A DNA stretch of 64,000 bases from Candidatus Bathyarchaeota archaeon (GCA_003141855.1 PLNS01000021.1:21060-85059); one strand, 5' to 3'; shown: positions 736 to 22,773, numbered from the stretch's first letter. Notes: a model not told the origin generated them from the letters alone. Numbers and translations are program-made.

Positions 736-1140
736 ATGACTGACGCGAACGCAAACGTTCTAAGGCGGGCTATTGCGGCCCGACCGAATGTGACACGCTC
801 AAATCATGTGCACACCTTCATCCGAAACGACTCAAGCGTCGGCACAAATGGGGATTCCCAACAGAAACCCAGGAAAACAACCCAAATTAACGAGACGCCG
901 TCAAAGAACCGACATTTAACCCATAAGGCACAAGAAACTGAAATAAGTGCTCTAGAAAGTATTTGCCTGTCTAGGAAAACGGTTGACATCCGTCCTCTCA
1001 AAGCTTTCGTTCGCGCCAATTACCAAAAAGACTCTGCAATCTACGAAGTGGTCGTTACAGATGAGGATTTCCTTGATGCGGCTGAGTTTTCCGCGAAAGT
1101 CGGTGTATTCTTGAAATTGTCTCGGAGGATCAAGAATTGA
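736..1140 (+). CDS. Small hypothetical protein preceding the recombinase cluster
   Basis: 134-aa ORF whose stop overlaps the start of the next ORF; no recognised domain. Confidence 0.4.
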   Translation: MTDANANVLRRAIAARPNVTRSNHVHTFIRNDSSVGTNGDSQQKPRKTTQINETPSKNRHLTHKAQETEISALESICLSRKTVDIRPLKAFVRANYQKDSAIYEVVVTDEDFLDAAEFSAKVGVFLKLSRRIKN

Positions 1141-2894
1141 CAATTTTCCGTCCGGAGACCGTAAGATTGGAGGGGCGAAGACAAGCCGAATGGGCATTTT
1201 TCCATCAGAAAATTATGCCACAATTACGTCACAAAATCAAGGAATTCGCGAGTTTTTGGCGATTTCACATTAAAAGTCGTATAAAACTTCATATAATTTT
1301 CAGGATTACGTCGTCGTACGACACGAAAATCCTAATTAGGATAAGAAATTTGATACAATTCTTTAAGTCCAAACGTTTAAGCATGGTCTTTTGTGGCTCT
1401 CCTTATATAGGGATGCCAAAATCCTATTTTTTAGGAGCGAGCATATTAGGCACAATTTTGGGTATTCTGTCGCTATCGCACTCTCTTTTCCCCTTTGTTT
1501 CATTGCCCTTTTTGATGGGTCTTGCTTCGCAGAATCCAAAACCAGACGATAAGCCTAAAACAGAAAGGGCTGAGCCTCCGGAAAAAAGTATCAATTCCAA
1601 GAACCAAAATGACCATCAAAAAAGGAAACGGTCAACAACCGCCTATATGAAAATCCTGTTTCCCGAAATAGAAGATATAATTGAAACCGGGTTGGATGGA
1701 CCACCAGTTGCCATTTACATCCGTGTTAGCACCTGGCTGCAGGTCCTTGAGGGCCAGAGCATGGAATACCAGAAGAAAGAACTTTTGAATCTGGCAAAAC
1801 AAACAATCAAAGCTTCAATTATCTACATTATTTCTGACGCAGGAAAAAGTGGACGCAACTTTAGTAACCGAAACCTAGGAATTATTCTTCAACTTGCCGC
1901 TGCTCAGAAAATCCAGCGCTTGCTCGTGTCGGAAGTTGACAGAGCTGGGAGAGATGCATTTGAATTGCTTTATTATCTTTTTCAGTTGAGGAGTTATAAT
2001 GTATTACTACAGACGCCACAAGAACTCCTCGACCTTAAACGCCTCGTCGATTTAATCAATCTTGCATTCAAATCTGCGGCCGCTGAGGACCAAGTATTGG
2101 CAAGAGGCGCTGGTTCGAAACGAACAAAGGTCGGCAACTTCTTAAAAGGACAATGGAACATTCCCGTTCCATTAGGATACAAGAAATCAGCAAAGAAATC
2201 CTGGATAAAAAAAGTGCCCGCTTGGGAACCAGTAAAAATCTTCAATGATATTTTTTTATTCTATCGTGAAATGAAAAATTATAAAGCAGTCTGTCGAACC
2301 GTAAACTGTCAATACGACAGCTTCTTAATGTCAACTATCAAGAGACATTTAACCCCTGCCGAGATTACGCGAATATTAAGGAATTCGGTCTACGTCGGAA
2401 AACCTCGCAGTGGTGAGGCGGTTAGAGACGATCCAACCTTAGCCTACATTGATGATATGAAGATTTTTGAAAAAGCCCAAGAAATAATGAGAGATAAAAG
2501 TGAAGAATATGAGCGTCACGACAAACGAATTCAGGAAGTTGCCAAATATTTTGACCCTGACGCCATAAAATGCATTGAAAACATCATAGTGCCGTGTCCA
2601 AGATGCGGAAAACCAATGGATGGCAATGGTCATCCAGGCTACGTTTGCCTAACTTGTAACAAGAATAGATGTGATCTTAAGAAAACAGAGATCGCTAACC
2701 TCAGGCACCACGTACTCTACCGAGAACAAATACTCAAGTTAACCATCAAATTCTCAAATGAAGATCAACTAAATCCGAAGGCTCGTAGAGAAGTTGCCGA
2801 ACTTGAACGCTTACTTGAAAAAGCGATAGCTAAAGCAATCAAGGTAAGTGCAAAGATGAAAAAAATAAAGAAGGAGGTGAGAAAAAATGAATAA
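1137..2894 (+). CDS. Serine recombinase (resolvase/invertase N-domain plus recombinase C-domain and zinc-ribbon-like Cys); start uncertain, real start may be ~1383 or later
   Basis: VAIYIRVSTWLQVLEGQSMEYQKKEL (intact catalytic Ser), EVDRAGRDAF Arg motif, LRNSVYVGKP recombinase motif, CPRCG...CLTC. Confidence 0.85.
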   Translation: MTIFRPETVRLEGRRQAEWAFFHQKIMPQLRHKIKEFASFWRFHIKSRIKLHIIFRITSSYDTKILIRIRNLIQFFKSKRLSMVFCGSPYIGMPKSYFLGASILGTILGILSLSHSLFPFVSLPFLMGLASQNPKPDDKPKTERAEPPEKSINSKNQNDHQKRKRSTTAYMKILFPEIEDIIETGLDGPPVAIYIRVSTWLQVLEGQSMEYQKKELLNLAKQTIKASIIYIISDAGKSGRNFSNRNLGIILQLAAAQKIQRLLVSEVDRAGRDAFELLYYLFQLRSYNVLLQTPQELLDLKRLVDLINLAFKSAAAEDQVLARGAGSKRTKVGNFLKGQWNIPVPLGYKKSAKKSWIKKVPAWEPVKIFNDIFLFYREMKNYKAVCRTVNCQYDSFLMSTIKRHLTPAEITRILRNSVYVGKPRSGEAVRDDPTLAYIDDMKIFEKAQEIMRDKSEEYERHDKRIQEVAKYFDPDAIKCIENIIVPCPRCGKPMDGNGHPGYVCLTCNKNRCDLKKTEIANLRHHVLYREQILKLTIKFSNEDQLNPKARREVAELERLLEKAIAKAIKVSAKMKKIKKEVRKNE

Positions 2895-3729
2895 TTCTAC
2901 ATCCAAAAAAAGAGGTGTGATATACGTGAGGGTAAACGCAAGTGTCGCAAGCGCATATAGTAGTGACAATTCTGTTGAACGCCAAATCTCTGAGTGTAAA
3001 GAAAAAATGAAACGTGATAACGTTGAAGAAGTCTACGCTCCAATAATAGATTTAACATCAGCAAAAAAAACTCAAAACAACGGTTTAATGGAAGTGCTGA
3101 AACTTGCCGAAAATGGAAGCATTGACTATCTATACACAATTGAGCTTGATAGGATAAGCAGAGACTCAATAGCGCTCCTATATTTTCTATTTAAACTACG
3201 TGGATGTAACGTTACCGTCGCAACTCCTTTTCAAATATATGACATAAAGAAAATTGAAGACTTGATATACATCGTCGTAAAAGCTTATGCAGCTGAGAAT
3301 CAAATCGAAATCCGGAGAAACACCAGCCTTAAGACTAGGATTCAAAGATTCAAAAATCGTATATGGATTTCTGCTATTCCGCCGGGATTCGAGAAGAAAG
3401 AAAAATGGATAACAAAAAGCCCTGGCTGGGAACCCGTAATAAATGCTTTGTTCAACCTCTTTCTCGAAAACAAAAACGACGAATCAGTCCGCGAAAGCGT
3501 TAATGAAACTTTCCGAGACTTTCTCAAACAACCCTTAACGCGGCAGCAAATCAGAGAAATCCTTAGAAATCCGCTCTATGTCGGCAAACCCCAACTCGGC
3601 GGCGCGGTTATTGAGAAAGCGTTTCCAGCAACAGTTGTCGAAGATCCAAATCTACGCTTTGTGACTGATGAACTATATGCAAAGGCACAAGAAATCATGG
3701 TGGCTATCGATGCTAAATATTCCCTTTAA
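2887..3729 (+). CDS. Serine-recombinase paralogue lacking the catalytic serine
   Basis: GVIYVRVNASVAS...VERQ (Ser position is Asn), ELDRISRDS retained, LRNPLYVGKP retained; perfect SD AAGGAGGTGA at 2871-2880. Confidence 0.8.
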   Translation: MNNSTSKKRGVIYVRVNASVASAYSSDNSVERQISECKEKMKRDNVEEVYAPIIDLTSAKKTQNNGLMEVLKLAENGSIDYLYTIELDRISRDSIALLYFLFKLRGCNVTVATPFQIYDIKKIEDLIYIVVKAYAAENQIEIRRNTSLKTRIQRFKNRIWISAIPPGFEKKEKWITKSPGWEPVINALFNLFLENKNDESVRESVNETFRDFLKQPLTRQQIREILRNPLYVGKPQLGGAVIEKAFPATVVEDPNLRFVTDELYAKAQEIMVAIDAKYSL

Positions 3730-3974
3730 CGGTGGAAAACGTTTCCAAGCTTGACCCAAGATTGAACTTTCTACACCGAAAGAGGCTAACCCCCATTTTT
3801 ATTTTTCCCGAAACTCGAAGAAGTTGGATTTCTTGCCTAAAGACGGCTGGAAGATGTTACAAAAAAGATGAAGACCAAACTAAAAAAACACGAAAATCAA
3901 GAAGTTCCAACAATCAGTCCAATTCGAACCCTAGACGTTGAGTTGTATACATTTCACACTAAGGAGGTGATATA

Positions 3975-4391
3975 ATGAAAAGTGATATCGAAAAAAAGAG
4001 AGGAATAATATATGTAAGAACCAACCTGAGAGCATGCGAACGCCTTATTGACCAGATTGAAATCTGCCTGCGCCTCAACGACTGGATTAAACTGTGCCGC
4101 AAAACCATGAAGAATGAAATGGTAATTGAGGTCCACGCTCCAATAATAGATTTAGGTTTCGGAGTGACCAGGCGCAAACCAAGATTGAAGAAACTGAGTA
4201 GCTTAGTTAAAAGCAGGAGCATCGACTTTCTGTATATTTACGATTTGTCTAGGCTTGGCAGAAAAGTCACTGAGGTTTTTGAGCTGTTGCAGACTTTAAA
4301 AGAATCAGGCGTTGAAGTGAAAACAGATGAAGGCGGCATCAATCTCTTCCAAGAGAGCTTGAGTCTAATTGCATGTCCAGCAATTGCGTAA
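3975..4391 (+). CDS. Stand-alone resolvase N-domain lacking the catalytic serine
   Basis: GIIYVRTNLRACERLIDQIEIC (Ser position is Asn), YDLSRLGRKV; perfect SD AAGGAGGTGA at 3961-3970. Confidence 0.7.
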   Translation: MKSDIEKKRGIIYVRTNLRACERLIDQIEICLRLNDWIKLCRKTMKNEMVIEVHAPIIDLGFGVTRRKPRLKKLSSLVKSRSIDFLYIYDLSRLGRKVTEVFELLQTLKESGVEVKTDEGGINLFQESLSLIACPAIA

Positions 4392-4537
4392 CTGAAGACA
4401 AACCTCTTTTCCTTTCTTTTTTGAACGAATATTTAATGTTAAAATTTTATGTTATAAGGAAACCTATCAAAGAAGCTTGCTAAATCAATAACGTTTTATT
4501 CTCTTTTCCGATTTACTTGTGTCAGCATTTCTTGTAT

Positions 4538-5410
4538 TTACAGGTAAATCTTGAAGAGAAGATGTTTGGATATCTCCTGGTACCGCGTGCACATCGTCGC
4601 CTGCGTTATCCGCCCTATCTCAGCTATTTCTCTTTGTGTCTTGGTTTCACCGCCTATTATGGACGAGATATAACACGATGCGGCGGCTATACTTACAGGG
4701 TTTTTCCCTTTGGCAAATCTCTGATCTTTAATCGCGCAAATGATTTTTTCCGCTAGCTCTATGGTTTTGTCTTTTTCGAATAGGCTTCTTGCCAGCTTGC
4801 TCACGTATAGTTCTGAAGTAGCGGGGCTTGATAGGGGCTTTATTTTCTTGAAAAGACGGTTGTGGACGCGTCTGATTTTGTCGGGGCTAATTTTCGTCAA
4901 GTATGCTATTTGATTTAATGAGGTTGCAATTCCTGCTTGTCTGCACGCGATGTAGACTATGGTTGCGGCTAGTACTTTTGTGGGGTTTCTTCGGGTTAGG
5001 TTTGAGTTGATAATTTTCTTGTAGATTTCTAAGGCAAGTTTTAGTGTGCTTTCTGGAAGGGACAAGGTTTGTCCGATTTTTGTGATCTCAAAAAGGGTTG
5101 TCGCCAACCTTTTTTCTGTGGCGTCGGAAACACCGAGCAGTTTTTGCCACTTCTTGTAACCGCCTTCGCCAAAATCTATATCAGCCACAGGTTTTGTGGT
5201 CATATTTTTCGAGTGGTTCGGCTCAAGTTTTTTGGACTTTAGTTTTTGGTTCTTGAGGTCTTTTAGGTCTATTACGGTACTACAGTTGACGCATATTGTT
5301 TTCTGGTCGTATTGCATAGTTTTTTTGCTTCCGCAATTAGGGCATTTTACGCTTCTTGCTGGTGACCTTTTAGGGGTTGATTTTTGCAGAGTCATCGCAT
5401 TAATCCTCAA
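4538..5410 (-). CDS. tfb: Transcription initiation factor B (TFIIB/TFB family)
   Basis: CPNCGSKKTMQYDQKTICVNCSTVI zinc ribbon plus two cyclin-like repeats (RNPTKVLAATIVYIACRQAG; NPVSIAAASCYISS, TQREIAEIGRITQATMCTRY); TTG start overlaps the upstream stop. Confidence 0.92.
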   Translation of the reverse strand: MRINAMTLQKSTPKRSPARSVKCPNCGSKKTMQYDQKTICVNCSTVIDLKDLKNQKLKSKKLEPNHSKNMTTKPVADIDFGEGGYKKWQKLLGVSDATEKRLATTLFEITKIGQTLSLPESTLKLALEIYKKIINSNLTRRNPTKVLAATIVYIACRQAGIATSLNQIAYLTKISPDKIRRVHNRLFKKIKPLSSPATSELYVSKLARSLFEKDKTIELAEKIICAIKDQRFAKGKNPVSIAAASCYISSIIGGETKTQREIAEIGRITQATMCTRYQEISKHLLFKIYL

Positions 5411-6390
5411 TGGTTCATGATTGTTGGGGATGGTTTCTTGGGCTCCAGAAGTTCGGAATATCGGTTGAAAACTTTTTCTATTTTGAGTGTTTTTCTGTCT
5501 CTTGGCATTGGCGGTCTTTTAGCGTTTCCTCTTTTGTATCTGGTTCGAACTTGCTGTGCTTTTCTGAAAAGTTTCAAGTCAACAATTCTAAATTCTTTCA
5601 CGAATTCATGAAAGCCAGCACAATTGAATTGTCCGACATACAATTCATTCGTGACGATTTTATGGACAGTTCTGCTTGTCCATATCTTGATCTTCTTGGA
5701 AACGATTTTTTCTTGGGTCAGTATAAAAGCGGTTTGTGGAAGACTTTTTATTTTAACATACATTCGGATGATTTTGTTTACTAGTGCAACTTCAGAGTTG
5801 TTGGGGCGGAGATCACCATTTTTGCGTCTGTCAAATCCCAGCGGCACCATTGCATTTGGCCATTTGTGTTCTTTAATAAGCCGATATAAGCCCATTTGTG
5901 TCCGTTCGCCAATTATTTCTCTTTCAAGCTCGCTATAGCTTGCCAGGTTTCGAAAGTTAAATCTGCCGAGAGCTGAAACAGTGTCAACGTTTTCGGTGAC
6001 AGAGCAAAGACCTATCCCCAGCTTACGTAGCGTTCTTTCAGTGTTGACGAGGTCGCAAAGGCTTCTGCAGAATCTATCAAGTTTCCAGGCTATGACTAAG
6101 TCAAATTCTTTTGCGTTGGCTTTCTCCATCATACATTGGAATTTTGGTCGGTCTGTGTTTTCTCCGCTTTTTGCTTCGTCAACAAAAATGTATTTCACTA
6201 TCCAGCCTTGTTCTTCGCAACGTTGCAGGCAGCAACTAACTTGCCCATCGATTGAATAGTTGAATCTGTTGCCTGAAGTCCGAGCGTAAACTGCGGCAAG
6301 TTTTTGGTTTTGTGGGCTGTCTATTTTGGCTTTCGTGTTAGTTTGTCTCCCATTGTTATGTGATTTATGAAAATTTGGGCTTGAATTCGT
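5407..6390 (-). CDS. Serine recombinase, catalytically intact; no canonical start upstream of its catalytic serine (ORF caller starts too late at 6198)
   Basis: Minus frame is open from the TAG at 6391-6393: TNSSPNFHKSHNNGRQTNTKAKIDSPQNQKLAAVYARTSGNRFNYSIDGQVSCCLQRCEEQGWIVKYIFVDEAKSGENTDRP...WKLDRFCRSL. Confidence 0.8.
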   Translation of the reverse strand, partial: TNSSPNFHKSHNNGRQTNTKAKIDSPQNQKLAAVYARTSGNRFNYSIDGQVSCCLQRCEEQGWIVKYIFVDEAKSGENTDRPKFQCMMEKANAKEFDLVIAWKLDRFCRSLCDLVNTERTLRKLGIGLCSVTENVDTVSALGRFNFRNLASYSELEREIIGERTQMGLYRLIKEHKWPNAMVPLGFDRRKNGDLRPNNSEVALVNKIIRMYVKIKSLPQTAFILTQEKIVSKKIKIWTSRTVHKIVTNELYVGQFNCAGFHEFVKEFRIVDLKLFRKAQQVRTRYKRGNAKRPPMPRDRKTLKIEKVFNRYSELLEPKKPSPTIMNH

Positions 6391-6810
6391 CTAAACCAAA
6401 CCCGACATTTCAGGTTCATTCACCGACTGTAGCGCCACATGGAAATCCCGGAGGATTTTGCTTACCTCTAATAGTTCCCTGGGAGATCGAGATATTCGGT
6501 CAATACTTGAAACCACAACGATATCGAAAGAGTACTGCGCTGCCTTCATCAACATCAGAGAGAGTTCTGGTCTTTCAATAGCCTCTTCGCTCACGCCTTC
6601 GTCAAAAAAGAGGTTAGAAAGGATCCAGCCTTTCTGGGTGATATATTCACTGCACCTTTTTACTTGCTCGATATTACTATCGTTTTGATTTCCTCGGGCT
6701 GTACGAGTATAGATCGCCGCTCTAACGATGTTGGTTTTGCAGGCGTTTCCTTTTTGGCTGCTTGATGAGCCGTTCAAATTTGTGTGTGGTGATTCTTTCT
6801 CGTTTGACAT
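6391..6810 (-). CDS. Resolvase N-domain with catalytic Ser replaced by Ala, same frame as the downstream recombinase across TAG
   Basis: RAAIYTRTARGNQNDSNIEQVKRC, SSIDRISRSPREL; GGAGGT SD upstream of ATG. Confidence 0.75.
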   Translation of the reverse strand: MSNEKESPHTNLNGSSSSQKGNACKTNIVRAAIYTRTARGNQNDSNIEQVKRCSEYITQKGWILSNLFFDEGVSEEAIERPELSLMLMKAAQYSFDIVVVSSIDRISRSPRELLEVSKILRDFHVALQSVNEPEMSGLV

Positions 6811-6813
6811 TTG

Positions 6814-8076
6814 CTAATTAACCTCCGGTACAACTTGGGTTGTTTCGATTTGAAATACGGCTTCATTTATCCGCGCTTGAAGTTCACCCAAAACACGTTT
6901 CAGATGAACATCAAGCTGTTCAGTGTCGTCCATTATTCCCTTAGCATTTGTTGCAATTCGCTGGGTTTTTTCCCTAATTTTTCTAACCCATTCGACGTAT
7001 TGACTTGCCTCTTGAATCGCAGAGTTTATCTTTTTTTCAGCGAACAATTTGGCAAAGTCCATTTCTCTTGGCTGAAATGGACGCAACGCAATAATGGCTG
7101 CTCTGAGTGCGCCATAGGAAATTTGAAAGTATCTTCTGTCAGTAACTAAAATAGTTCCTTCGGGACAAATTTCAATAAGAAAGCCATTTGTGCTTTTTGG
7201 CATGGTCTCGACAGCAAGGATCGCGAGCTTCTCACCCCTCACTAACATGTGTCTTCTCAGCTGCTGAATGAATCCACGATCCCACCCTCGACTGTTTTTC
7301 TTAGATTCAATAAGAATTTTTTGGCCAAGATTTGCCCCGTTAAACCTGGGCATAGCTACAAGATCAATATCGCCAGAGCCACCAAGATGTGTACAATCGT
7401 CTTCCGGATAGTAATCGCGAAGTTCTTGAATGAGTTCTAGTTCTCCAATTTTTCCTTTTTCGCCAGGTATTTTTTGAGAACGAATCAATTCCTCAAGCAA
7501 GGGTAAGGTCATAGGAATCAACTGCGTGAGCAGTTTCATCTGCTCCGGTTCGGGAAAGCCCATTTTTTCAAGAGTTCCCTTGAATTTCATTGCCAGATCT
7601 TGTTCGAGTTCGGTTAGTCTTATTTTGTTTGATAGGTTCAATTGTTCAAATGCGGTCTGAATCGAACTCATGAACTCCGTTGGTTTGGGCGAGAAGTCCA
7701 CAATTGTTTTAAACTGTTTTTCAAATGTTGATCGGCTTTCATAGAACTCTGCCTGGATACTGCTTCTTAGCTCATCAGGGAGTTTCTCTACTATTCTTGG
7801 CAATTTTTCAATCGTAAGTTTAATTGGCTCTAGAATTTTGTATGCTTCTTGCTGAAAATTCTTCACCATTGCTTTTGCCAACCCATCCAGAAGTTCAGAC
7901 TCAGCAACGTGTTTAAGCTGAGGAAAGTTTTCCCAGACAATTTTTGCCAATGATAGTGAGGCGTTTATTTTACCTTCTTTGGCTCGCGCTTCAAGAAAAT
8001 CAAGAGTTTCTTTGTCAACGCTACAATTTGAGAAACTACTTCCACAAATTGGGCATTCTATTGAAGTTGTATTCAT
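6814..8076 (-). CDS. PD-(D/E)XK restriction-endonuclease-like protein with N-terminal zinc-binding CPICG
   Basis: GEKGKIGELELIQELRDYYPEDDCTHLGGSGDIDLVAMPR...KILIESKKNSRGWDRGFIQQLRRHM. Confidence 0.65.
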   Translation of the reverse strand: MNTTSIECPICGSSFSNCSVDKETLDFLEARAKEGKINASLSLAKIVWENFPQLKHVAESELLDGLAKAMVKNFQQEAYKILEPIKLTIEKLPRIVEKLPDELRSSIQAEFYESRSTFEKQFKTIVDFSPKPTEFMSSIQTAFEQLNLSNKIRLTELEQDLAMKFKGTLEKMGFPEPEQMKLLTQLIPMTLPLLEELIRSQKIPGEKGKIGELELIQELRDYYPEDDCTHLGGSGDIDLVAMPRFNGANLGQKILIESKKNSRGWDRGFIQQLRRHMLVRGEKLAILAVETMPKSTNGFLIEICPEGTILVTDRRYFQISYGALRAAIIALRPFQPREMDFAKLFAEKKINSAIQEASQYVEWVRKIREKTQRIATNAKGIMDDTEQLDVHLKRVLGELQARINEAVFQIETTQVVPEVN

Positions 8077-8098
8077 ATTCAGTTACTCCTCTGATGGT

Positions 8099-8534
8099 TT
8101 ATTTTCGCATTTTTCGCTCGAATAATGAAAAACTATTTCCTTCCAAACCATTTTTCGTCACCTCAACGATTAAGTTGGCTTTCTTGGATATTCCAACAAG
8201 CGATCATTCCAATAAAATATCCTTCTGATTTGCCGCGACATAAAAGGTAGCTAACTACAAAGTCAAATTTGTTCGACCGGGCTCGGGCTCTCAAAAGTTC
8301 AGTTATATCAGTTCCATCTTTCTGGAGGAATAAGTCCCCCGAAAATAGCAGACCCTGGCTATTCAGATATTTTTGGCAGGCCTCTATTTGTTTTGCGATG
8401 CTAACTTCTTGTGAGGCGGATTGGTTAACATAAATGGCGGCAAGTTGGTTATTTTTCGGCACCGAAGGTTCTGAGTATTTTTTGTCGTTGTTTACAAAAT
8501 TAGGTTTAATCATATTTTCATTTCTCCGTAACAT
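8099..8534 (-). pseudogene. Decayed resolvase N-domain
   Basis: AAIYVNQSASQEVSIAKQIEAC resembles YxRxS...; DRxxR motif lost at LCRGKS; after a frame change the sequence reads NQKDILLE*SLVGISKKANLIVEVTKNGLEGNSF with an in-frame TGA. Confidence 0.65.
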
Positions 8535-8541
8535 GTTTATA

Positions 8542-8606
8542 GGTTATATAACCTTTATAGGTTAAATAACCAAAGAGAATGTAAAGCATATAAAGGTTAT
8601 GTTACC
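8542..8606. promoter_or_regulatory. Three palindromic GGTTAnnnTAACC-type operators upstream of the AbrB-like gene
   Basis: GGTTATATAACC 8542-8553, GGTTAAATAACC 8560-8571, GGTTATGTTACC 8595-8606. Confidence 0.7.
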
Positions 8607-8631
8607 AATATCGCCAATAAAGGTTAATGAA

Positions 8632-8790
8632 ATGCGGAAAGAAGTCGCCATTATTTCAGTTGTACGCAATGGAAGAATAACAATACCTGAAGAATTACGA
8701 AAAGAGCTAGGAATAATTGATGGAACAAAAATTAAAGTGGAACTCGATATTGAAAGCGGCAGAAAAAGCGTCGTTCTTACAAAGATGTAA
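8632..8790 (+). CDS. AbrB/SpoVT-type swapped-hairpin DNA-binding protein
   Basis: VVRNGRITIPEELRKELGIIDGTKIKVELDIESG; start at 8632 preferred because 8599 lies inside the third palindrome. Confidence 0.85.
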   Translation: MRKEVAIISVVRNGRITIPEELRKELGIIDGTKIKVELDIESGRKSVVLTKM

Positions 8791-9654: not shown

Positions 9655-10800
9655 ATGGCTGAGGAACCTATTAATGATTTGTTAGCCGACTTCAAAGATG
9701 CGGAATCCAACAACTATACTTTTATGGCTCTCAGGGGGATACAAGCAGGCCGAGAATACTACAGCGTAATGTGCCAATTAAGTTTCATTCCTAAACTATT
9801 TATGTTTGATGAAAAACAGCTACCTCCTGCACTAAGAGCTCAACGACAACTAAACCGCGGCAGGATCCCAACAATTAGCCGGTATATCCTGGATGATCCT
9901 GAAAATTATGTATTTTCTTCTATCACAGCTTCAATCGACGGGCGTGTTGAGTTTGTACCCTTCCGTTCAAATGGAGCAGCAAGCAAAGTAGGTCACCTCA
10001 TCATTCCTCAATCTGCAAGATTCGTGATAAATGACGGACAACATCGAAAGGCAGCGATTGAAGACGCACTAAAAAAAATGCCCAAACTTGGGGTGGAGCA
10101 CATATCCGTAGTTTTCTTTGTTGATGGCGGGTTGAAACGAAGCCAACAAATGTTTTCCGATTTAAATAAGCATGCTTTAAGACCTACAATGTCTCTTGCA
10201 ATTTTATATAACCATAGAGATCCTTTGGCACGTTTATGCAAGAAAATTGCGGATCAAGTTCCAGTTTTTGAGGAACGGATTGAGATTGAGAAAAGCTCAA
10301 TATCCAATAGATCGAACAAGCTGTTTACTTTGAGTAGTCTTTACCAAGCAACGAAATCCCTACTTAGTATTAACCAAAAAGTTGGGCGTTTTCCAGAAAA
10401 AAGTGAAACCACCGCAATTCAGTATTGGACTGAAGTGTCTAAACACATGCCTCTTTGGCAACTTGTCAAAGAAGGGAAAGCGGCTGCTTATGATCTAAGA
10501 AGGAACTATGTTAATGTTCATGGAATCGTACTTCAGGCATTAGGCACTGCTGGTCGAGCGTTGCTTGACGAATACCCTGATGGCTGGAAAGAAAGATTAG
10601 ATGGTCTTGAAAAAATCGATTGGTCTCGTTCGAATAAAGCGGTCTGGGAAGGACGCGCCATTTATTCGGGTAGAATTTCTGCCTCAAACATGAACGTAGC
10701 TCTAGTTACAATAGTAATTAAAGAAGCGCTAGGACTACATTTAGGGCAAGTTGAGCTGGAATTAGAAAGAAACTTTCAAGAAAAAAGCAGAGCTGACTAA
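9655..10800 (+). CDS. dndB: DNA sulfur modification regulator DndB (DGQHR domain)
   Basis: FVINDGQHRKAAIEDAL; position immediately upstream of dndC. Confidence 0.9.
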   Translation: MAEEPINDLLADFKDAESNNYTFMALRGIQAGREYYSVMCQLSFIPKLFMFDEKQLPPALRAQRQLNRGRIPTISRYILDDPENYVFSSITASIDGRVEFVPFRSNGAASKVGHLIIPQSARFVINDGQHRKAAIEDALKKMPKLGVEHISVVFFVDGGLKRSQQMFSDLNKHALRPTMSLAILYNHRDPLARLCKKIADQVPVFEERIEIEKSSISNRSNKLFTLSSLYQATKSLLSINQKVGRFPEKSETTAIQYWTEVSKHMPLWQLVKEGKAAAYDLRRNYVNVHGIVLQALGTAGRALLDEYPDGWKERLDGLEKIDWSRSNKAVWEGRAIYSGRISASNMNVALVTIVIKEALGLHLGQVELELERNFQEKSRAD

Positions 10801-10802
10801 AA

Positions 10803-12242
10803 ATGGACACAGTTACTGAGCAAACAATCTCAACTTCAATTTTTGACAAACAGAACCTAAAAGATATTCATAAAGAAATACAAGAAGTCTATTTATCCGA
10901 TCACAGACCATGGGTAATAGGTTACAGTGGCGGTAAAGATTCAACAACATCGCTTCAACTCATTTTCTACGCGCTCTCTGAGTTACCCCTGGAAAAACGT
11001 AACAAAACTGTTCATGTTATATCGACTGATACGTTAGTTGAAACTCCTTTAATGGTGGATCTGATCGACAACACTCTGAAAAGAATCGCCACAAAAGCTG
11101 CCGAAGCTAATTTACCTATTGTAACTCACCGGTTAAAACCGCTTATAACTGATAGTTTTTGGGTAAATCTAATAGGAAAAGGGTATCCGGCACCCTCCCA
11201 ACGTTTTCGATGGTGCACAGAACGTCTCAAGATCGAGCCCGCAAATAGGTTCATAACCGAACAGCTATCAAAATACGGTGAAGTAGTTTTAGTACTTGGA
11301 GTGCGACGCCAAGAAAGTGCCACACGCGCTCAAGTCATCAATCTTTATGAAATTCCTAATTCCGTTTTATCAAGACATTCAACATTTTCTAGCGCCTTTG
11401 TATATGCACCAATAAAAGAATGGAGCATTAATGACGTCTGGTCGTACCTGTTACAGGTTCCTTCTCCCTGGGGTAATGAGAATAGAGATTTAGTCGCATT
11501 GTACAAAACAGCCCAAGGCGAATGCCCCTTGGTAGTGGATGACACAACACCAACATGTGGCAACAGCCGATTCGGATGTTGGGTCTGCACTTTAGTAAGC
11601 GAAGACAAGTCCCTAAAAGCTCTTATCGATTCAGGAGAAACATGGCTCCACCCACTATTGGAGATTCATGATTTTCTTGTTAAGACGCAAAATCCGGAAA
11701 ACAAACATCTATACAGAGAATATAAGCGAAAAGACGGAAAAGTATGGTTCAAAAGTGATGGATCGGGATCGATCTCAAGAGGCCCTTACACTCTCGAAGT
11801 TCGCAAGCAAATATTATCAATGGTATTGAAAGCGCAGATAAGCGCTAACGCTCAAAACCCAGGTTTCAATCTGCAACTGATTCTTCCTGAAGAGTTGTAT
11901 GAAATAAGGCGCCTCTGGAGAACCAAAGAAGGTGACTGGGAGGATTCCTTACCAAAAATCTATAGAGAAATAAACGGCGCCGATCTGGAATGGTTGCAAG
12001 ACGACGTTGCCTTTTCAATAAAAGAAAAATCTTTGTTACTTGAGATCTGCAACAAACACAATCTTCCTCTTGGTCTTGCGATGAAAATTCTTGATGTGGC
12101 TCTTCAATCAAGAGGCATGACGCGACGTGCTTCTATTTATAAAAAGATTAACCGAATTTTTTCTGAAGAATGGCGAACCGAAGAAGATTTGCTTAAAGAA
12201 GTAAAAACTGTTGATGGTAAAGTTCCGGGGGGACCTGCATAA
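10803..12242 (+). CDS. dndC: DndC, PAPS-reductase/ATP-pyrophosphatase family phosphorothioation protein
   Basis: WVIGYSGGKDSTTSLQLIFYAL (PP-loop SGGKDS), RWCTERLK, CGNSRFGCWVCT cysteines. Confidence 0.95.
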   Translation: MDTVTEQTISTSIFDKQNLKDIHKEIQEVYLSDHRPWVIGYSGGKDSTTSLQLIFYALSELPLEKRNKTVHVISTDTLVETPLMVDLIDNTLKRIATKAAEANLPIVTHRLKPLITDSFWVNLIGKGYPAPSQRFRWCTERLKIEPANRFITEQLSKYGEVVLVLGVRRQESATRAQVINLYEIPNSVLSRHSTFSSAFVYAPIKEWSINDVWSYLLQVPSPWGNENRDLVALYKTAQGECPLVVDDTTPTCGNSRFGCWVCTLVSEDKSLKALIDSGETWLHPLLEIHDFLVKTQNPENKHLYREYKRKDGKVWFKSDGSGSISRGPYTLEVRKQILSMVLKAQISANAQNPGFNLQLILPEELYEIRRLWRTKEGDWEDSLPKIYREINGADLEWLQDDVAFSIKEKSLLLEICNKHNLPLGLAMKILDVALQSRGMTRRASIYKKINRIFSEEWRTEEDLLKEVKTVDGKVPGGPA

Positions 12243-14275
12243 GATTCAAACGACTTGAAATAACGAATTTCGGGGTCTTTTCAGGGGAACAATCATTCGA
12301 TTTACAGCCAACAAAATCGATCGAAGGATCTAAACCTATAATTATTTTTGGTGGAAAAAATGGAACTGGCAAAACTACACTTCTCGAAGCTTTCAAAATA
12401 TGCCTATATGGTTTCTCGTTTAAAGGCCAAAAAATGGAAAAAAAAGACTACAACAAGCATATACAGTCACGGCTACACAGGAATCTTGACGGTTCAAGAG
12501 CACCTTATGCATCGATAGCTTTAGAATTTGACTATGCTCGTTCTGGGTATGTTGATAATTTTCTTATTAAACGATCTTGGAAATACACTGACCAAGAAAT
12601 TGTTGAAGTACTAGATATTCACCGCAATAACGAACCATTGGTTGAAGTAAACGAAGAGCAGTGGCAAAATTTTCTTATGGAGTTAATTCCGCCTGGGCTT
12701 TCAAAACTGTTCTTCTTTGACGGTGAAAAGATTCAAAGTTTAGCTCGGGGGCAAGGCGAAAATAGGTATATTCTCGAGTCAATTAATTCCCTTCTTGGAA
12801 TTGATTTGATTGAGCGCCTCAGATACGACATAAAAATGTATTTGGCTAAAGAATCAACTAACAACGCAGTCGGCCTTGAAGCCAGTTTATGTGAAATAAA
12901 GAACCGAAGAAAATCTATTGAATTAAGACTTGATTCACTACTTCAAGAAAAAGCTTCTATGCAAAATAAAATGATGCGCGTTAATTCAGAAATTGAGAAT
13001 CAGGAACTGCAAATTTCAACGGATGGTGGTGGTTTTGCTTCTCAAAGAGAACAGCTTAAAGATAAGGCAAAGACACTTGAGGCTAAAATCGAATCAACAA
13101 AAGAAGAAATACGTGATTTATGCGCTGGATTACTGCCGTTTGCGATTGTACCCGAATTTTGTAAAACTTTGAAAAGCCGCTTGGAACACGAAGAAAAAGA
13201 GCAACAAAGACAAGCTGCCATAACTTACCTAAATAATATGGTGAACGAATTATCAGAAGATATTGGAAAGGCGTTGTTCTTTGATGTATTAAGATTATCC
13301 AAAGATGAAAAGCATTTAGTAGCAAGTGAAACCATCAAAATCCTGCGAGGCAAAATAGAAAAAGTAAATGGCTTCTCTAAAGAGAACATCCACGCTGTAT
13401 CTTCAATTGAACGCCTTGAACTTCTAAGATGGATTCAAGTAGCCACAGATCAAATTCCTTCCAATCTTAAAGAACTTTCATCAAGGCTAGCAGAGCTGGA
13501 GTCAGAAAATGAAATAACTAGGGGATACATCTTCAACGCTCCATCAGATGATGTACTCAAGCCCTTTTTCATAAAGTTGGGACAATTACATGAAGAACTT
13601 GGAACACTTCAACAGAAACAAGCAATCACAGAGAAAGAAATTGAGTCTATCAAACTTCAGTTGACCATAATATTACGCGAACAAGATAAACTTCTAAATG
13701 AAAAAACTCAATTTGATAAATCCATTAGGCGCCTAGAACTCGCTGCTAAAACACAAGATGTATTAGAAGAGTATCTGCAACGATTGAGGACTGAGAAAGT
13801 TGGCGAATTTAGAGAAAACTTTTTGGAATGTTTCAACCTACTATTTGGGAAACAAAACTTAGTCAGTAATGTTGATGTTTCTGCTTCGAACTTCGAAATA
13901 ACGTTGCTTACATCTCAGAATATTCCGCTACCTAGAGTTGAGCTTTCTTTGGGAGAGAGGCAGATTTATGCTATGGCTATGATCTGGGCGTTGGCTAAAA
14001 CATCAAACAGATTGTTGCCATTCCTAATGGACACACCTTTAGGTCGGCTTGATACAGATCACAGAAAAAATATTATGGACAATTTTCTGCTTAATGCTTC
14101 TCATCAAATAATAGTGTTTTCGACAAATACCGAAATAGACCAACATTACTATGACCAGTTGCAGCCCTACATCGCTAAAGCGTATAACTTGGAATACGAC
14201 TCTGATAAAAGAGAAACAACAGTTAAGCAAGGCTATTTTTGGAAAAGCTTAGAGGTGGAAAAGAATGAGCTTTAG
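12239..14275 (+). CDS. dndD: DndD, SMC-like ATPase; ORF-caller start (12434) omits the Walker A, which lies upstream in frame
   Basis: In-frame upstream reading RFKRLEITNFGVFSGEQSFDLQPTKSIEGSKPIIIFGGKNGTGKTTLLEAFKICLYG; Walker B LLPFLMDTPLGRLDTDHR. Confidence 0.92.
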   Translation: MRFKRLEITNFGVFSGEQSFDLQPTKSIEGSKPIIIFGGKNGTGKTTLLEAFKICLYGFSFKGQKMEKKDYNKHIQSRLHRNLDGSRAPYASIALEFDYARSGYVDNFLIKRSWKYTDQEIVEVLDIHRNNEPLVEVNEEQWQNFLMELIPPGLSKLFFFDGEKIQSLARGQGENRYILESINSLLGIDLIERLRYDIKMYLAKESTNNAVGLEASLCEIKNRRKSIELRLDSLLQEKASMQNKMMRVNSEIENQELQISTDGGGFASQREQLKDKAKTLEAKIESTKEEIRDLCAGLLPFAIVPEFCKTLKSRLEHEEKEQQRQAAITYLNNMVNELSEDIGKALFFDVLRLSKDEKHLVASETIKILRGKIEKVNGFSKENIHAVSSIERLELLRWIQVATDQIPSNLKELSSRLAELESENEITRGYIFNAPSDDVLKPFFIKLGQLHEELGTLQQKQAITEKEIESIKLQLTIILREQDKLLNEKTQFDKSIRRLELAAKTQDVLEEYLQRLRTEKVGEFRENFLECFNLLFGKQNLVSNVDVSASNFEITLLTSQNIPLPRVELSLGERQIYAMAMIWALAKTSNRLLPFLMDTPLGRLDTDHRKNIMDNFLLNASHQIIVFSTNTEIDQHYYDQLQPYIAKAYNLEYDSDKRETTVKQGYFWKSLEVEKNEL

Positions 14276-14642
14276 TAGAATTAGACTAAGCAAGAGTGCT
14301 ACGACACGTCTCTCACTTTTGAAGGGTCGAACTGGCCTTACACCCAACATTTTGTGCAGAATTGGATTCTCTCTTTCTATTCGTGATCCAATAGTCCCTA
14401 AACCCGAAAACTATGACGAGGACGGTCAAGAAATAAATCGATATACATTAATGGGCGAATGGGACAAATTTTTTATTGCATTGCTTAAAGAACGTCTTCT
14501 CAAAGATGGATTAGATCTAAAAGAAGACTTATTCCCACAATTACGCGCACACATCAATCGAGGGGCAATTAGCTTGTATGATAAAGTCAAGACAATAGAA
14601 GACTTCCAAGAATTGCTCCCAAAGGAGGGCGCTTTGTCTTGA
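14265..14642 (+). CDS. dndE: DndE
   Basis: MSFSRIRLSKSATTRLSLLKGRTGLTPNILCRIGFSLSI, small basic protein between dndD and desulfurase. Confidence 0.9.
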   Translation: MSFSRIRLSKSATTRLSLLKGRTGLTPNILCRIGFSLSIRDPIVPKPENYDEDGQEINRYTLMGEWDKFFIALLKERLLKDGLDLKEDLFPQLRAHINRGAISLYDKVKTIEDFQELLPKEGALS

Positions 14643-15799
14643 ACTTTCCAATCTATTTAGATTCACACGCTACGACGCCAGTTGATCCAAGAGTGCTCAA
14701 AGAAATGATGCCCTACTTCACAGAGAAGTTCGGCAATGCTTCTAGTATTGACCATTCATTTGGCACAGAAGCTGCAGATGTTGTCGATAAATCGAGAAAG
14801 AAAATCGCAAGGTGCATTAATGCATCACCTGAAGATATAATTTTCACTAGCGGTGCAACTGAGTCAAATAATATTGTACTACAAGGCTTGGCTGGAAAAG
14901 ATCCGTTTAAAAATCATATAATCACTTGTGTGACAGAGCATAAATCGATCCTTGATACATGCAAGCATCTTGAGACTATTGGCAAGAAGGTTACTTATGT
15001 GCCTGTTGATAACCAAGGTGTAGTTGATCTTGAATTACTAGAAAATGCCATCAGTGAAAGAACTGCGTTGATAAGTGTAATGACTGCTAACAATGAAATC
15101 GGAACAATAGCGCCAATAAAAGAAATAGGTGAAATCGCCCACAAACATTATGTGCCTTTTCATACTGATGCGACTCAAGCAGTTGGCCATATACCTTTTG
15201 ATGTTGGTGCTTACAACATAGATTTCGCTTCAATTTCAGCTCATAAGATTTATGGTCCCAAAGGAGTTGGAGCTCTATTTTTTAAGAGCGATGGTTTAGT
15301 TGGAAAACCCTCGCCGCTCTTCTTTGGAGGTGGACACGAACGCGGCGTTCGGTCTGGTACTTTAAACGTTTCGGGAATTGTGGGTTTGGCTAGCGCATTG
15401 GAGTTATCAATTGAATTAATGAAGGAAGAGAACAATAGATACCGAGAAATGTCTAAACTCTTGATTAATAATTTTCTGGAAGAGGTCAGCCCTGCCGAGC
15501 TCAACGGTCATCCACTTCAAAGACTTACGCATAACATCAATATTTCGTTCGATAATGTGGAAAACAAAGCGCTCATCCACGCAGTTAAAGATAAATTAGC
15601 TATTTCAACTGGATCAGCTTGCACGACACTGAATGTTGAACCATCGCATGTCATAACTGCCTTAGGTGTTGGCACAGTAAGAGCATTTAATGCTATTCGA
15701 TTGGGGCTTGGAAGATTCAATACTTTTGAGGAAATTCAGTTCTCAGCCGACTATATCATTGAAAAGGTCAAGAAATTAAGAAAGTTGAAACTTTCATAA
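14639..15799 (+). CDS. dndA: Cysteine desulfurase, DndA/IscS type
   Basis: IYLDSHATTPVDPRVL, SAHKIYGPKGVGAL PLP lysine, STGSACTT catalytic Cys; overlaps dndE stop. Confidence 0.9.
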   Translation: MNFPIYLDSHATTPVDPRVLKEMMPYFTEKFGNASSIDHSFGTEAADVVDKSRKKIARCINASPEDIIFTSGATESNNIVLQGLAGKDPFKNHIITCVTEHKSILDTCKHLETIGKKVTYVPVDNQGVVDLELLENAISERTALISVMTANNEIGTIAPIKEIGEIAHKHYVPFHTDATQAVGHIPFDVGAYNIDFASISAHKIYGPKGVGALFFKSDGLVGKPSPLFFGGGHERGVRSGTLNVSGIVGLASALELSIELMKEENNRYREMSKLLINNFLEEVSPAELNGHPLQRLTHNINISFDNVENKALIHAVKDKLAISTGSACTTLNVEPSHVITALGVGTVRAFNAIRLGLGRFNTFEEIQFSADYIIEKVKKLRKLKLS

Positions 15800-15973
15800 T
15801 TAAGAATGATCAGAAATACACAAAGCTAATTTAGCTATTCCGCCTACGATCTTGTAAACTATATACCAATAAGTTGATTGAAGTTCAAACTATTGGCATA
15901 TGAATAATAGGGTTTAACAGGAGGAGTAGGGACGGAAATAGAACATGATCTTGGGCTTAACGTTCTTCAACGA

Positions 15974-17739
15974 ATGCTTACCAAAGGATTTGTGGGTGAG
16001 AAATGCGATGAGCTTGAATGTATGGCTTACAATGTAAGTCTTGATCTTGTTTTAAGGCTGTTTAAAGAATTCCCTTCGCTGAAAAGTATTTCTATATGGT
16101 CAAATGCTGAAAAAATTACCTATTCAACAGAGCACTATAAAGAATTGGAGAATCTCATGAAACTAAAGAAACTTGCATTTTTTACTATTCCAGAAAATTT
16201 AACATTAATTCATGGCAAATTATACTTGTTTAAAAAAGAAGGGCAAATAAAATTTTTAGCGGTTGGTTCTCCAAATCTTTCTGAATATTCCAACTTAAAC
16301 TTTGAATCACTTTTCTATTTAACATCAAATTGCGAAGCAATATGGAATGATATTCCTCGAATATATGCTGATCTTAGCTTGATACCTAAGACGGATCTGC
16401 CGATTAAAAGGTCACCAATAAAGACATCAGATTCGAAAATTGATCCAAAGTTACTCTCTTCTCTTTGGAAACACCAGACTGAGGTTTTAATTTGGTTAGA
16501 GGATAAAACCAGTTCGATCGTAAACATCCCGCCCGGTACAGGCAAGACCAAGATTGCTTTTACTTACCTGCGATACCTATTTGGAAAAGATGCAGATTTG
16601 ACTTCAGTAGTAATAGTTCCGACAATCACACTCTTAAACCAATGGAGGAAACTATTAGATGAAGCGAACATTCCAAATTTAGAATGGGGTACAGATCTAA
16701 ACGACTTGGCTCTTATTTCGCAGATCCGAGCCATCGAGTTTTAGTAACACTTTATAGTAGATTTTTTGATCAATATCGTGAGTATTATAAGAGAGCAAAA
16801 ATTCTGAAGCCGTCCTTATTACTCATTTTAGATGAATGCCATAATTCCTATGGTCACATAGATAATTTAAGCGAATTTAATAGCTTAATTCAATCATTTG
16901 GAAGTCAAACTTATCGACTTGGTCTTTCAGCGACCATCGATTCATTCAGGGAAGACGAAGTAAAAAGCTTTGTCAATTTCATGGATGGAAGTAACAATCG
17001 TTTCGAAATTTCTTTGCAGCGTTTTTACTCCTATTGGAATAGGCTAAATTCCACTTTAGTATTAAAACCTCTCAAGTACTTTCCTTTGAAATACAATTTG
17101 ACTCTTGCCGAAATGGATGAATTCAAGAACCTTAGCAAAAATATAGCTATTCAAATCGGTAAATCTACCATGGGAGGAGCTAATGAGCCGACAGCCGCTA
17201 TCAAACGTGCAAGATGGCTGAGAAGTTTACCCGGTGGCGTTAGAGTTCTCCAGAATTATATCACTTCTCACATTGATGGTTTTTCAGACAAAGCCTCAAT
17301 AATATTTGTGCAAACGAATGAGATTGCAGAGCATTTAAGGGATTTTATCACTAAACAACCTGGATGGAACCCAGACGCATCTACATATGTTTATGATTCA
17401 TCAAAAAGTGAGGATCATAATGCGTATGCCTTCAGTCAATTTAAAAAGAATGTAGGTTATTGCTTAATTTCAGAAAAGATGCTCTCAGAGGGATTTGATC
17501 TACCAAAAGTTGATAGAGTTATTCTTCATGGTTCCGATAAATCTGAAAGAGACTGGATACAAAAAATAGGTCGTGCTTTGCGCTTTGATGCAAAAAGTCC
17601 TAACACAATAGCTGAAATAATCGATATAGTTTTTTGCGAAACAAATGGCGAGCCTTTGCTTTTAGAAAGGGAGCGCTATGAAACACTATTATCTATTGAT
17701 CAAATATCGGGTGATTTGAATGACCAACAAAGTAGATAA
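15974..17739 (+). CDS. Superfamily-2 helicase with N-terminal PLD-like (HGK) region; split by a frameshift at ~16690-16740
   Basis: LIHGKLYLFKKEG...VGSPNLSEYSN; NIPPGTGKTKIAFTYL (Walker A) in 15974-16744; LLLILDECHNSYG (DEAD-type), GLSATI, KMLSEGFDLPKVD, QKIGRALR in 16684-17739, another frame. Confidence 0.8.
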
Positions 17740-17914
17740 TGATAAAAAACAAATTGCTATACAAAGCAGGATTGAAGAAGTAATGAATGCTGAATTTGAC
17801 AAACTTCTTGCTGAAGCTGGCGATGACATTCTTTTAAAATTAGTTCGTCAAAACAAAATTGATTCCATTTCACTAGAGGAAATCAAGCGGTTGTTAAAGG
17901 GGGATAAAAAATGA
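17720..17914 (+). CDS. 64-aa hypothetical protein coupled to helicase and ATPase
   Basis: Overlaps the end of the helicase and the start of the next ORF. Confidence 0.55.
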   Translation: MTNKVDNDKKQIAIQSRIEEVMNAEFDKLLAEAGDDILLKLVRQNKIDSISLEEIKRLLKGDKK

Positions 17915-19800
17915 ATAACATTCATTTTTCGCTCATAAAAGTATCTGGTTATCGAGGAAGAAACTTTACCCTGAAAATGAATCCTCGAGGTCAGCATACT
18001 ATTTTTATTATGGATGGCAATACAGGGAAAACGACGACCATCGAACTATTGAGATGGTGCTTCAAATACCCCCAAAGTCAGTGTATCAATAATTTTAGTC
18101 ACACATGGTTTAATCATGCTTATGTTCTAGACGAATCCAAAAATTCGCCTCAACATTGCGAGATACTTATTCGATTTTCCGCATTTGACGAAAAAGGGAA
18201 AGACCATCTTTACCAATTTACGCGATCCGTTGATGGAATTTCCGATCTTGAGCATAAACCAAACTCCGACATAATCAGGGAAGTCTACGATACATTAGAA
18301 ATAGACCAGGGAAAAAATGTCCTAACAGGTAACGCTGTTTTCGATTTTCTAAAAGATGAATTGCGTTTCAAAGAATGTGCCGACTTTTTCTGTTTCGATG
18401 GAGAAAAAGCACGGGAATTAATGCAGCTTTCTTCAAATTCTGAAAAGGTGGGTGACTTATTATTCCTTGTAAACCAAAGGGCAACTCATCCCAGAATTGA
18501 GGAATACAAAGAAAAACTCAATGGATTGAAAAATAGACTTCTGGAGGAAGCTAATGCAAAAGTATCAGATAAGGCACTAGAAATATTGATCGGACGTCTA
18601 AGAACTGCGATTGAAGATTTGCGTCAGGCTGAGAAAGAAGGAAATTCAATTAAAGTTGAAATGGCTGCCAATTCATTAGCGCTAAAGAGCCAACAGGATC
18701 GTTTTAATGAGCTTGAAAACAAGATAACTCAAGCTAAGGCAGACGAAATTGTTCAAAAACTACGATTTGATGACGATTTGAAAACTAAAACTGCTGAAAT
18801 TGCACGTAAACGCTCCGCCATCTATGCCTTTGCTTCACAATGGTATAGTGCAGATATTGGTTTAATTAATCAGCTTAAAACACAAGTACGTGAAAAAGGA
18901 AATCTACCCGAACCTTTCAGAAAAAATTTGATCTCAAATTGCTTAACAATTGGAAAATGCGAAATCTGTGGAAGATTGTTAGATGAATCCTCGAGAAAAC
19001 ACATATTGGCACTAGAATCCGTAGTTGCTGATCCAGATGTGCATACGTTTTTACAAAAAACACTTGATCCGCGAGCTAATGTGCTGGATACCGAGAAAGA
19101 ATACAAGGAAATCAAGAACTTGATTGATGAATGCAAGAGAATTCAAAACCAAATAGACAGTATAAAACTCACCAAAGAAGATAGCCAACTTTTCACTGAA
19201 AGAGAACTAGTACAAAAGGACATTGCTTTGATCATGACAAACAATGCCAATTTACAAAGTAAACTAAATGAACGTAATTCTTGGATAATTGATCTGAAGC
19301 AACAAGTCACAGAGTTGCAAAGCAAAAACTCAACGTTAAAAGAAAATAAAGTCATCATCGATAGAATTGACGAATCAATTAGCAAGGTCGAGGCGGCGGG
19401 GGAAACAATAAAATCTAAAACTATTGATATCATTAGCGGTGTCATTTCAGAAGGGGTTTCATCAATTTTGGGACCCAAGTTTTCTGCAAAGCTCTCTGTC
19501 AAAGAAGGACTTGTATTAGGTGAAGATGGTCACTATGGGCGTGAAAGGGGTGGATATTCGGGTCGTCTCATTCTATCCTACTGTTTTGCCGAAGCTATGA
19601 CGCTAATAGACCCTATAATCGTCGATACACCATCAGGAAACGTTGGAAGCCATAGAGAAAAACTGGCAAGACACTTAGTCGCAAATCATCAACAAATTAT
19701 ACTCCTATGCTTGCCTACTGAGATCAATGATTTTGGACCTTTCATCTCATCTAATCCCATAAAAATAGTAAATGAAGAGGGTGTAACCAATGAAGCTTAA
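17911..19800 (+). CDS. SMC/Rad50/DndD-like ATPase with zinc-hook-like CxxC and degenerate Walker A
   Basis: TIFIMDGNTGKTTTIELLRWCF; GKCEICGRLL; DPIIVDTPSGNVGSHREKL; central coiled coil. Confidence 0.8.
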   Translation: MNNIHFSLIKVSGYRGRNFTLKMNPRGQHTIFIMDGNTGKTTTIELLRWCFKYPQSQCINNFSHTWFNHAYVLDESKNSPQHCEILIRFSAFDEKGKDHLYQFTRSVDGISDLEHKPNSDIIREVYDTLEIDQGKNVLTGNAVFDFLKDELRFKECADFFCFDGEKARELMQLSSNSEKVGDLLFLVNQRATHPRIEEYKEKLNGLKNRLLEEANAKVSDKALEILIGRLRTAIEDLRQAEKEGNSIKVEMAANSLALKSQQDRFNELENKITQAKADEIVQKLRFDDDLKTKTAEIARKRSAIYAFASQWYSADIGLINQLKTQVREKGNLPEPFRKNLISNCLTIGKCEICGRLLDESSRKHILALESVVADPDVHTFLQKTLDPRANVLDTEKEYKEIKNLIDECKRIQNQIDSIKLTKEDSQLFTERELVQKDIALIMTNNANLQSKLNERNSWIIDLKQQVTELQSKNSTLKENKVIIDRIDESISKVEAAGETIKSKTIDIISGVISEGVSSILGPKFSAKLSVKEGLVLGEDGHYGRERGGYSGRLILSYCFAEAMTLIDPIIVDTPSGNVGSHREKLARHLVANHQQIILLCLPTEINDFGPFISSNPIKIVNEEGVTNEA

Positions 19801-20932: not shown

Positions 20933-20962
20933 CTACATAATAGAACGCAAATTGACCTGGAA

Positions 20963-21442: not shown

Positions 21443-21538
21443 TTTGTTAACCCACCTAGCGCTGGCAACTAAGTTATCCTATATTCGCGGTAATGACTTT
21501 TATATTTTATTAGTCAGTAGTCTGGAGCCTAAGTTTTT

Positions 21539-22749: not shown

Positions 22750-22773
22750 TTACCAAATCCCTCTTTTGTAAAT

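Follow-up and report, generated by a model that had tools for sequence, protein, structure and literature searches.

A two-recombinase cassette accompanied by inactive serine-recombinase copies in an integrative element of a Candidatus Bathyarchaeota archaeon

What are several serine-recombinase-like genes with seemingly broken active sites doing beside two relatives that keep the catalytic serine? This question is raised by a 64,000-nucleotide stretch of DNA from a Candidatus Bathyarchaeota archaeon (GCA_003141855.1, PLNS01000021.1:21060-85059; hereafter the window), in which a cluster of six related open reading frames (ORFs), each called here by its lowest coordinate, lies at 1137-8534. We found that the core of this locus is a four-gene cassette encoding two different serine recombinases, SR1 and SR2, in which a putative nuclease gene, SR1 and the gene for TFB (a TFIIB-like transcription initiation factor) form an operon facing SR2. 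This cassette resides in tRNA-associated integrative elements within the archaeal family of this genome, and a Haloarcula plasmid carries it too. As a whole, we read the locus as this cassette plus additional inactive ORFs that stem from cassette replacements and are still translated, ORF 2887 acting as a partner of SR2, and we give this reading a probability of about 0.5.

The Pfam Resolvase family PF00239 matches five of the six ORFs with 42-108 bits against a curated cut-off of 23.3 (E-values of 6e-14 for 1137, 7e-15 for 2887, 9e-11 for 3975, 5e-31 for 5407 and 1e-18 for 6391), and all five matches in the 2.39-Mb genome lie within this cluster. The sixth, 8163, has no Pfam Resolvase match but is recognized by a profile built from active SR1 copies only (E=7e-7), so that the six recombinase-fold ORFs described in an earlier note on this DNA comprise five by Pfam and one divergent relative. 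ORFs, strands and motifs were confirmed at the positions given there. At the YxRxS column the ORFs read YIRVS (1137), YVRVN (2887), YVRTN (3975), YARTS (5407), YTRTA (6391) and YVNQS (8163); the catalytic serine is thus kept in 1137 and 5407 and gone from 2887, 3975 and 6391. The motif of 8163, which had been called decayed, has lost its arginine but keeps a serine at the catalytic column; elsewhere in this ORF, a short stretch reading ERP is missing, and so is the DR motif. The downstream DRxxR motif ascribed to all three serine-less ORFs is found in 2887 (LDRISR) and 6391 (IDRISR), whereas 3975 has SRLGR, the aspartate being lost. Intact and serine-less copies, which had been described as interleaved, are not arranged at random: SR2-type copies lie on the plus strand and SR1-type copies on the minus strand, with the TFB gene between them.

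The first cassette member, SR2 (1647..2894, plus strand), appears to be a large serine recombinase, with the motif YIRVST, PF00239, a PF07508 match below cut-off (19.0 against 21.1) and a weak zinc ribbon. Its frame is open from 1137, and the roughly 170 codons at 1137-1640 are not coding-like (z 1.0); since codon use is coding-like only downstream (from 1686), the ATG at 1647 is the likely start. The GER motif at the beginning of helix E is altered to RGAGS, and therefore the activity of SR2 is not certain. SR1 (5407..6324, minus strand; about 305 amino acids) has PF00239 and a PF07508 match above cut-off, without a zinc ribbon. Its YARTSG motif lies upstream of the first ATG, GTG or TTG in frame (GTG 6198), with no canonical start before the motif; start candidates are ATA 6324, which is in frame, and ATG 6353, which is one base out of frame (-1) at an AAAA run. 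The ATA start is plausible, because dndD of the same island also seems to be ATA-initiated. The TFB gene (4538..5410, minus strand; 290 amino acids; PF00382, 6e-23) has a start that overlaps the SR1 stop. The DUF2130-like protein of 420 amino acids (6814..8076, minus strand; PF09903, 4e-8; ESKKN motif) is, as judged from its motif and slot, a putative PD-(D/E)XK-type nuclease. A missing start near an A-run, together with a frame change near 16700 that splits a PbeA-like helicase gene (15974-17739), would fit base-call errors, which might then also account for the serine-less motifs. However, dozens of positions separate the inactive copies from active ones, and the frames of the former are fully open, so single errors cannot produce them, and we consider a sequencing or assembly artefact highly improbable.

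The cassette recurs outside the window. Two loci in two genomes of the same family (L050 and L051) show the full order with serines intact, and a third genome, more distant but of the same class (L155), has nuclease, SR1 and TFB genes up to the point at which the contig ends. A complete cassette with a convergent SR2 is carried by a plasmid of Haloarcula marina (NZ_CP100409.1; L203), which belongs to another phylum; its domains are, in order, PDDEXK_1, Resolvase plus Recombinase, TFIIB, and Resolvase plus Recombinase, and its TFIIB-family protein is annotated as 'hypothetical'. The window SR1 is 46% identical to SR1 of another genome (G016) and 44% to the Haloarcula SR1, these last two being 48% identical to each other; SR2 has homologues in L050, L051, L052 and L203. 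TFB occupies the equivalent slot in L050, L051 and L155 (26-35% identity) and in L203 (PF00382, 6e-14). The nuclease slot holds the same family as the DUF2130-like protein in L155 (40% identity) and PF12705 PDDEXK_1 in Haloarcula, and is thus filled by at least two unrelated nuclease families. Given this variety and the low identity of the TFB proteins, slot order is better conserved than sequence. SR1 itself is rare: of 257 class genomes, 4 were found to have it, and the search of 398 sampled phylum genomes gave 2, each of them previously known. One SR2 stands alone, fused in frame with a nucleotidyltransferase (NTP-transferase)-like domain (L052:9434-11257; G068:C8), with no SR1, TFB or nuclease gene alongside.

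The view of the earlier note that the system is element-encoded was supported by this conservation and by a gene for a tyrosine integrase that directly follows tRNA-Pro and ends roughly 0.8 kb to the left of the window. In G016 and G017 the integrase gene likewise directly follows tRNA-Pro, and in G045 a different integrase adjoins tRNA-Arg. The integrase of the window genome (G000) has no Pfam match; its G016 homologue, 76% identical, matches PF00589 at 1e-4, below cut-off. A search for att direct repeats of tRNA-Pro found none that was convincing, and at the far boundary the repeat search gave just a 19-nucleotide match resembling a tRNA 3' end, inverted relative to tRNA-Pro, at 35386-35404.

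How might such a cassette work? SR1 and SR2 could together move or rearrange the element in the manner of CcrAB of the staphylococcal cassette chromosome (SCC), and TFB would be the element's own initiation factor, transcribing element genes. As with CcrA and CcrB, two different serine recombinases lie close together on a mobile island able to carry restriction or defence cargo, and the best NCBIfam scores of SR1 are to CcrB (2e-31) and CcrA (8e-17). However, SR1 reaches 109 bits against a cut-off of 900 for CcrB and 62 against 700 for CcrA, falling short of the CcrA, CcrB and CcrC cut-offs, and it lacks the C-terminal part; the cassette genes are convergent and accompanied by TFB and nuclease genes, the host is archaeal, and a tyrosine integrase beside a tRNA is a further feature of the element. 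The resemblance may therefore concern mode of action, not family membership. IS607-family TnpA, a serine recombinase of archaeal transposons with weak profile similarity, differs in its N-terminal helix-turn-helix, its much shorter length and its lack of a TFB or nuclease cassette. A review (PMC8371274) states that the serine recombinases of archaea, although observed in transposons, have never been the subject of a full investigation. Each part of the locus is of a known kind, and in the literature searched we found neither the combination with its cross-phylum conservation nor any relevant account of inactive serine-recombinase paralogues or of a serine recombinase plus TFB cassette, which is no proof of absence. 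The cassette thus represents a compact cross-phylum system of two serine recombinases with what would be a dedicated TFB, and the Haloarcula plasmid makes it tractable in a group with genetic tools.

We then asked where the inactive copies come from. In trees, a check that the earlier note had proposed for the N-domains, 2887 and 3975 fall within SR2, whereas 6391, 8163, a fragment from G082 and one domain of a 353-amino-acid G031 protein fall within SR1, with 4-5 label changes on bootstrap trees. Approximately unbiased (AU) tests rejected a common clade for the inactive copies of SR1 type (p 0.016), a grouping of 2887 and resident SR2 (p 0.024), and one of 6391 and resident SR1 (p 0.034); 2887 plus 3975 as one clade was not rejected (p 0.14). 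These tests rule out recent duplication of the resident genes for 2887 and 6391. The phylogenies indicate that the four recombinase-derived ORFs without a working active site arose more than once, from SR1- or SR2-type ancestors and not from the resident genes. We suggest that they were left behind by successive cassette replacements, in which an incoming SR2/SR1/TFB set would have displaced an older G016-type set while 5' halves of the latter (3975 across from TFB, 6391 next to the nuclease gene) stayed in their old slots. This history is proposed because 6391 and 3975 sit in SR1 and SR2 slots and are closest to G016/G068-type enzymes.

The best-preserved inactive copy is 2887 (2887..3729, plus strand; 280 amino acids), which overlaps SR2 by 8 nucleotides. 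Of the 41 serine recombinases aligned, 2887 alone lacks the serine, having asparagine in its place (S10 to N); the 40 others all keep it. ORF 2887 also has asparagine at the R45-equivalent position (arginine in 38 of 40) and alanine in place of a glutamine (36 of 40), while R8 and LDRISR are kept. Since other catalytic residues are gone as well, from 2887 at the R45-equivalent position and from the short copies, serine loss as a lone point change is ruled out. AlphaFold2 predicts with high confidence (pLDDT, predicted local distance difference test, 91.1) that 2887 keeps the N-domain, followed by a long helix E spanning 123-156, and the recombinase domain; PF07508 matches above cut-off, without a zinc ribbon. 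The closest folds are the serine integrases 9dxd and 9dxf, and 9iu2 is matched too. In the tree, the branch of 2887 (0.90) is not accelerated relative to those of an active sister pair (0.87 and 1.23). Given the predicted fold, dimer helix and recombinase domain and the unaccelerated branch, 2887 would most likely be a non-catalytic partner of SR2, acting through mixed tetramers, site occupancy or dosage control.

In domain plan 2887 resembles the phage large serine integrases (SPbeta YokA/SprA, Bxb1, phiC31 and TP901-1), with their catalytic N-domain, helix E and recombinase domain, and the SR1 profile matches the TP901-1, Bxb1 and SPbeta integrases. Unlike these enzymes, 2887 lacks the nucleophile and the zinc ribbon, SR1 lacks the zinc ribbon, and each cassette has two recombinases. 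Among the matches to the 2887 model is phiC31 integrase S12A (PDB 9tep), in which the serine is likewise replaced and the fold kept; that protein is an engineered variant of the same enzyme, whereas the window copies are natural, paralogous and have further active-site losses. Should 2887 work as a non-catalytic subunit, it would be nature's counterpart to the dead-serine integrases made in the laboratory, and might provide protein control of recombination direction or dosage. Its adjacency to SR2, of the same family and with predicted fold and dimer helix intact, and the strong Shine-Dalgarno (SD) sequences described below would also fit a model in line with the earlier proposal, namely a dedicated heteromeric system with active and inactive subunits as obligate partners that set directionality. 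However, no inactive member was found beside active SR1 or SR2 in L050, L051, the partial L155 or the plasmid L203, which hold intact copies only. The earlier note had itself named the lack of a conserved pairing elsewhere as grounds for giving up the model, and such a pairing is not supported. As the inactive copies were moreover acquired separately and not derived from the resident pair, and the short ones lack helix E, we regard obligate partnership as unlikely.

The other three ORFs are much shorter. ORFs 3975 (3975..4391, plus strand; 138 amino acids; YVRTNL) and 6391 (6391..6810, minus strand; 139 amino acids; YTRTAR) are N-domains that stop short of helix E, and 8163 (8163..8534, minus strand; 123 amino acids) appears to be an inactive SR1-derived N-domain remnant; none has PF07508 or a zinc ribbon. 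A canonical heterotetramer role, which had been suggested for the inactive ORFs in general, is unlikely for these three because all end before the helix-E dimerization region; helix E and the recombinase domain are kept in 2887 only. ORF 3975, whose place opposite TFB is the SR2 slot, is nearest to the SR2 proteins of G068 and G016 (40-42%) and has no match to the resident SR2. ORF 6391 is 41% identical to G016 SR1 against 37% to the resident SR1, and begins 3 nucleotides after the nuclease stop, in a slot held by SR1 itself in L050, L155 and L203. Its AlphaFold2 model (pLDDT 77) shows a resolvase-like core without helix E, with the TP901-1 catalytic domain as the top PDB match. TAG readthrough that would fuse 6391 with SR1 is not favoured: the frames are in register, but stops of the TAG type are common here, ending 9 of 45 large ORFs. 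The short copies have lost about half of the residues that are invariant among active copies, and their end branches (1.0-1.8) are longer than those of nearby active copies (mostly 0-0.46); they would be fast-evolving relics or small regulators.

Relatives of these N-domains occur elsewhere. The 353-amino-acid protein of G031 (L191:9348-10409; G031:C1) has an inactive SR1-derived domain at its C-terminus, which is the mutual best match of 8163 (48 bits, the scores to active SR1 being 30 and 42) and forms a clade with it in two trees (support 98/86 and 99/97). The G031 element has a related (42%) tyrosine integrase near tRNA-Arg, plus ParA and type I restriction genes. A further inactive copy in G082 (G082:C55; 126 amino acids; YARTN) decays past the DR motif. 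No SR1/SR2 cassette accompanies the inactive N-domains of G031 and G082 within the stretch examined. Among viral contigs, the 8163-type domain was not found, matches to SR1 reached just 24-39% and were set aside as relatives, and bacterial tandem large serine recombinases failed as an active-plus-dead parallel, having the serine wherever the upstream frame was complete. A phage-like contig carries a resolvase-like protein of a different family (L252:4915-5376; G019:C42; 153 amino acids) with alanine at the serine column (YCRSAT) and an otherwise well-kept N-domain. The several independent origins from non-resident types, all of them inactive and spread over three genomes (G000, G031 and G082), could indicate that short N-domain proteins act in trans against the recombinases of related elements that come in, as dominant-negative or superinfection-exclusion factors. 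We find this quite unlikely, as the short proteins have neither a dimer helix nor a DNA-binding domain and the G082 copy is decayed. More tentatively than the overall reading given above, and at less than even odds, we propose that the cross-phylum cassette recruits dead paralogues as non-catalytic subunits or inhibitors, the lineage of 8163 recurring in G031 as a fused protein.

Are the inactive ORFs translated, or are they decaying? All four in the window have open frames and codon use like that of other genes (z 3.1-5.5), and a neutral simulation run to the observed loss of invariant residues gave probabilities of 0.003, 0.014, 0.018 and 0.021 per ORF of acquiring no stop. Stops were read through in the genome searches, and therefore openness was no selection criterion there. 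Perfect copies of AAGGAGGTGA occur just twice in the window, at 2871-2880 ahead of 2887 and at 3961-3970 ahead of 3975, compared with 0.21 expected, and two or more arose in 3 of 100 shuffles of the window; GGAGGT precedes 6391, so the SD sequences reported earlier are in place. Together, open frames, codon use, simulation and SD sequences support the view that the serine-less ORFs look translated rather than dead, and we infer that all of the inactive ORFs probably still are. They could instead be passive relics, that is, functionless decaying remnants of insertions or cassette exchanges that have not yet acquired stops. Their absence from other cassettes, the ending of three of the four before helix E, the long end branches of the short copies and the loss of about half of the invariant residues would all fit such decay; normal codon use in open frames, the simulation for each ORF, the strong SD sequences, the unaccelerated branch and full predicted fold of 2887, and the recurrence of the 8163 lineage as a fused protein in another genome argue against it. 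We consider passive decay a serious possibility, although a somewhat improbable one.

Several points weigh against our own reading of a cassette with translated inactive copies and 2887 as an SR2 partner. Since the other cassettes examined do without inactive copies, the cassette can function with none of them. With no canonical start for SR1 and an altered GER motif in SR2, impairment may extend to the resident 'active' pair. The replacement history is drawn from gene slots and from a small number of AU tests that involve long branches. The neutral simulation assumes that all loss of invariant residues came after release of constraint; if half of it did, the probability of no stop rises to 0.05-0.14 per ORF. 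Moreover, residues that never vary among active copies have fared no better in the inactive ones than variable positions have, and the window copies are known from a single metagenome-assembled genome. Their nearest relatives are about 40% identical.

To the right of the cassette, the window holds dndB, C, D, E and A (phosphorothioation) and PbeA/PbeC-like restriction genes (9655-25474). At 12239-12434, the frame of dndD opens ahead of the first ATG; the start is apparently an ATA that GGGAGG precedes by six bases, and the Walker A region of dndD lies before the called start. In E. coli, dnd clusters are known on diverse genomic islands (PMC4373003); the present island shares with these the dnd cargo, which here adjoins the cassette, and differs in its archaeal host and its two-serine-recombinase/TFB cassette. 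Farther right lies a PolB (B-family polymerase) region (26824-29130; L161-L166), whose membership in the element is uncertain, PolB being present in 11 of 32 genus genomes, with several copies in some and stop-containing copies in others. Together with TFB, the B-family polymerase points to an archaeal host, which we would read as Bathyarchaeia-like. A scar resembling the match at 35386-35404 lies near PolB (L161:10489-10511). Finally, palindromic GGTTATATAACC-like repeats (8538..8610, unstranded; a 22-nucleotide inverted repeat, 86% complementary) lie between the divergent operon of 8163 and an AbrB/MazE-like gene (8599-8790, plus strand; PF04014, 9e-6), where they probably serve as an operator or promoter.

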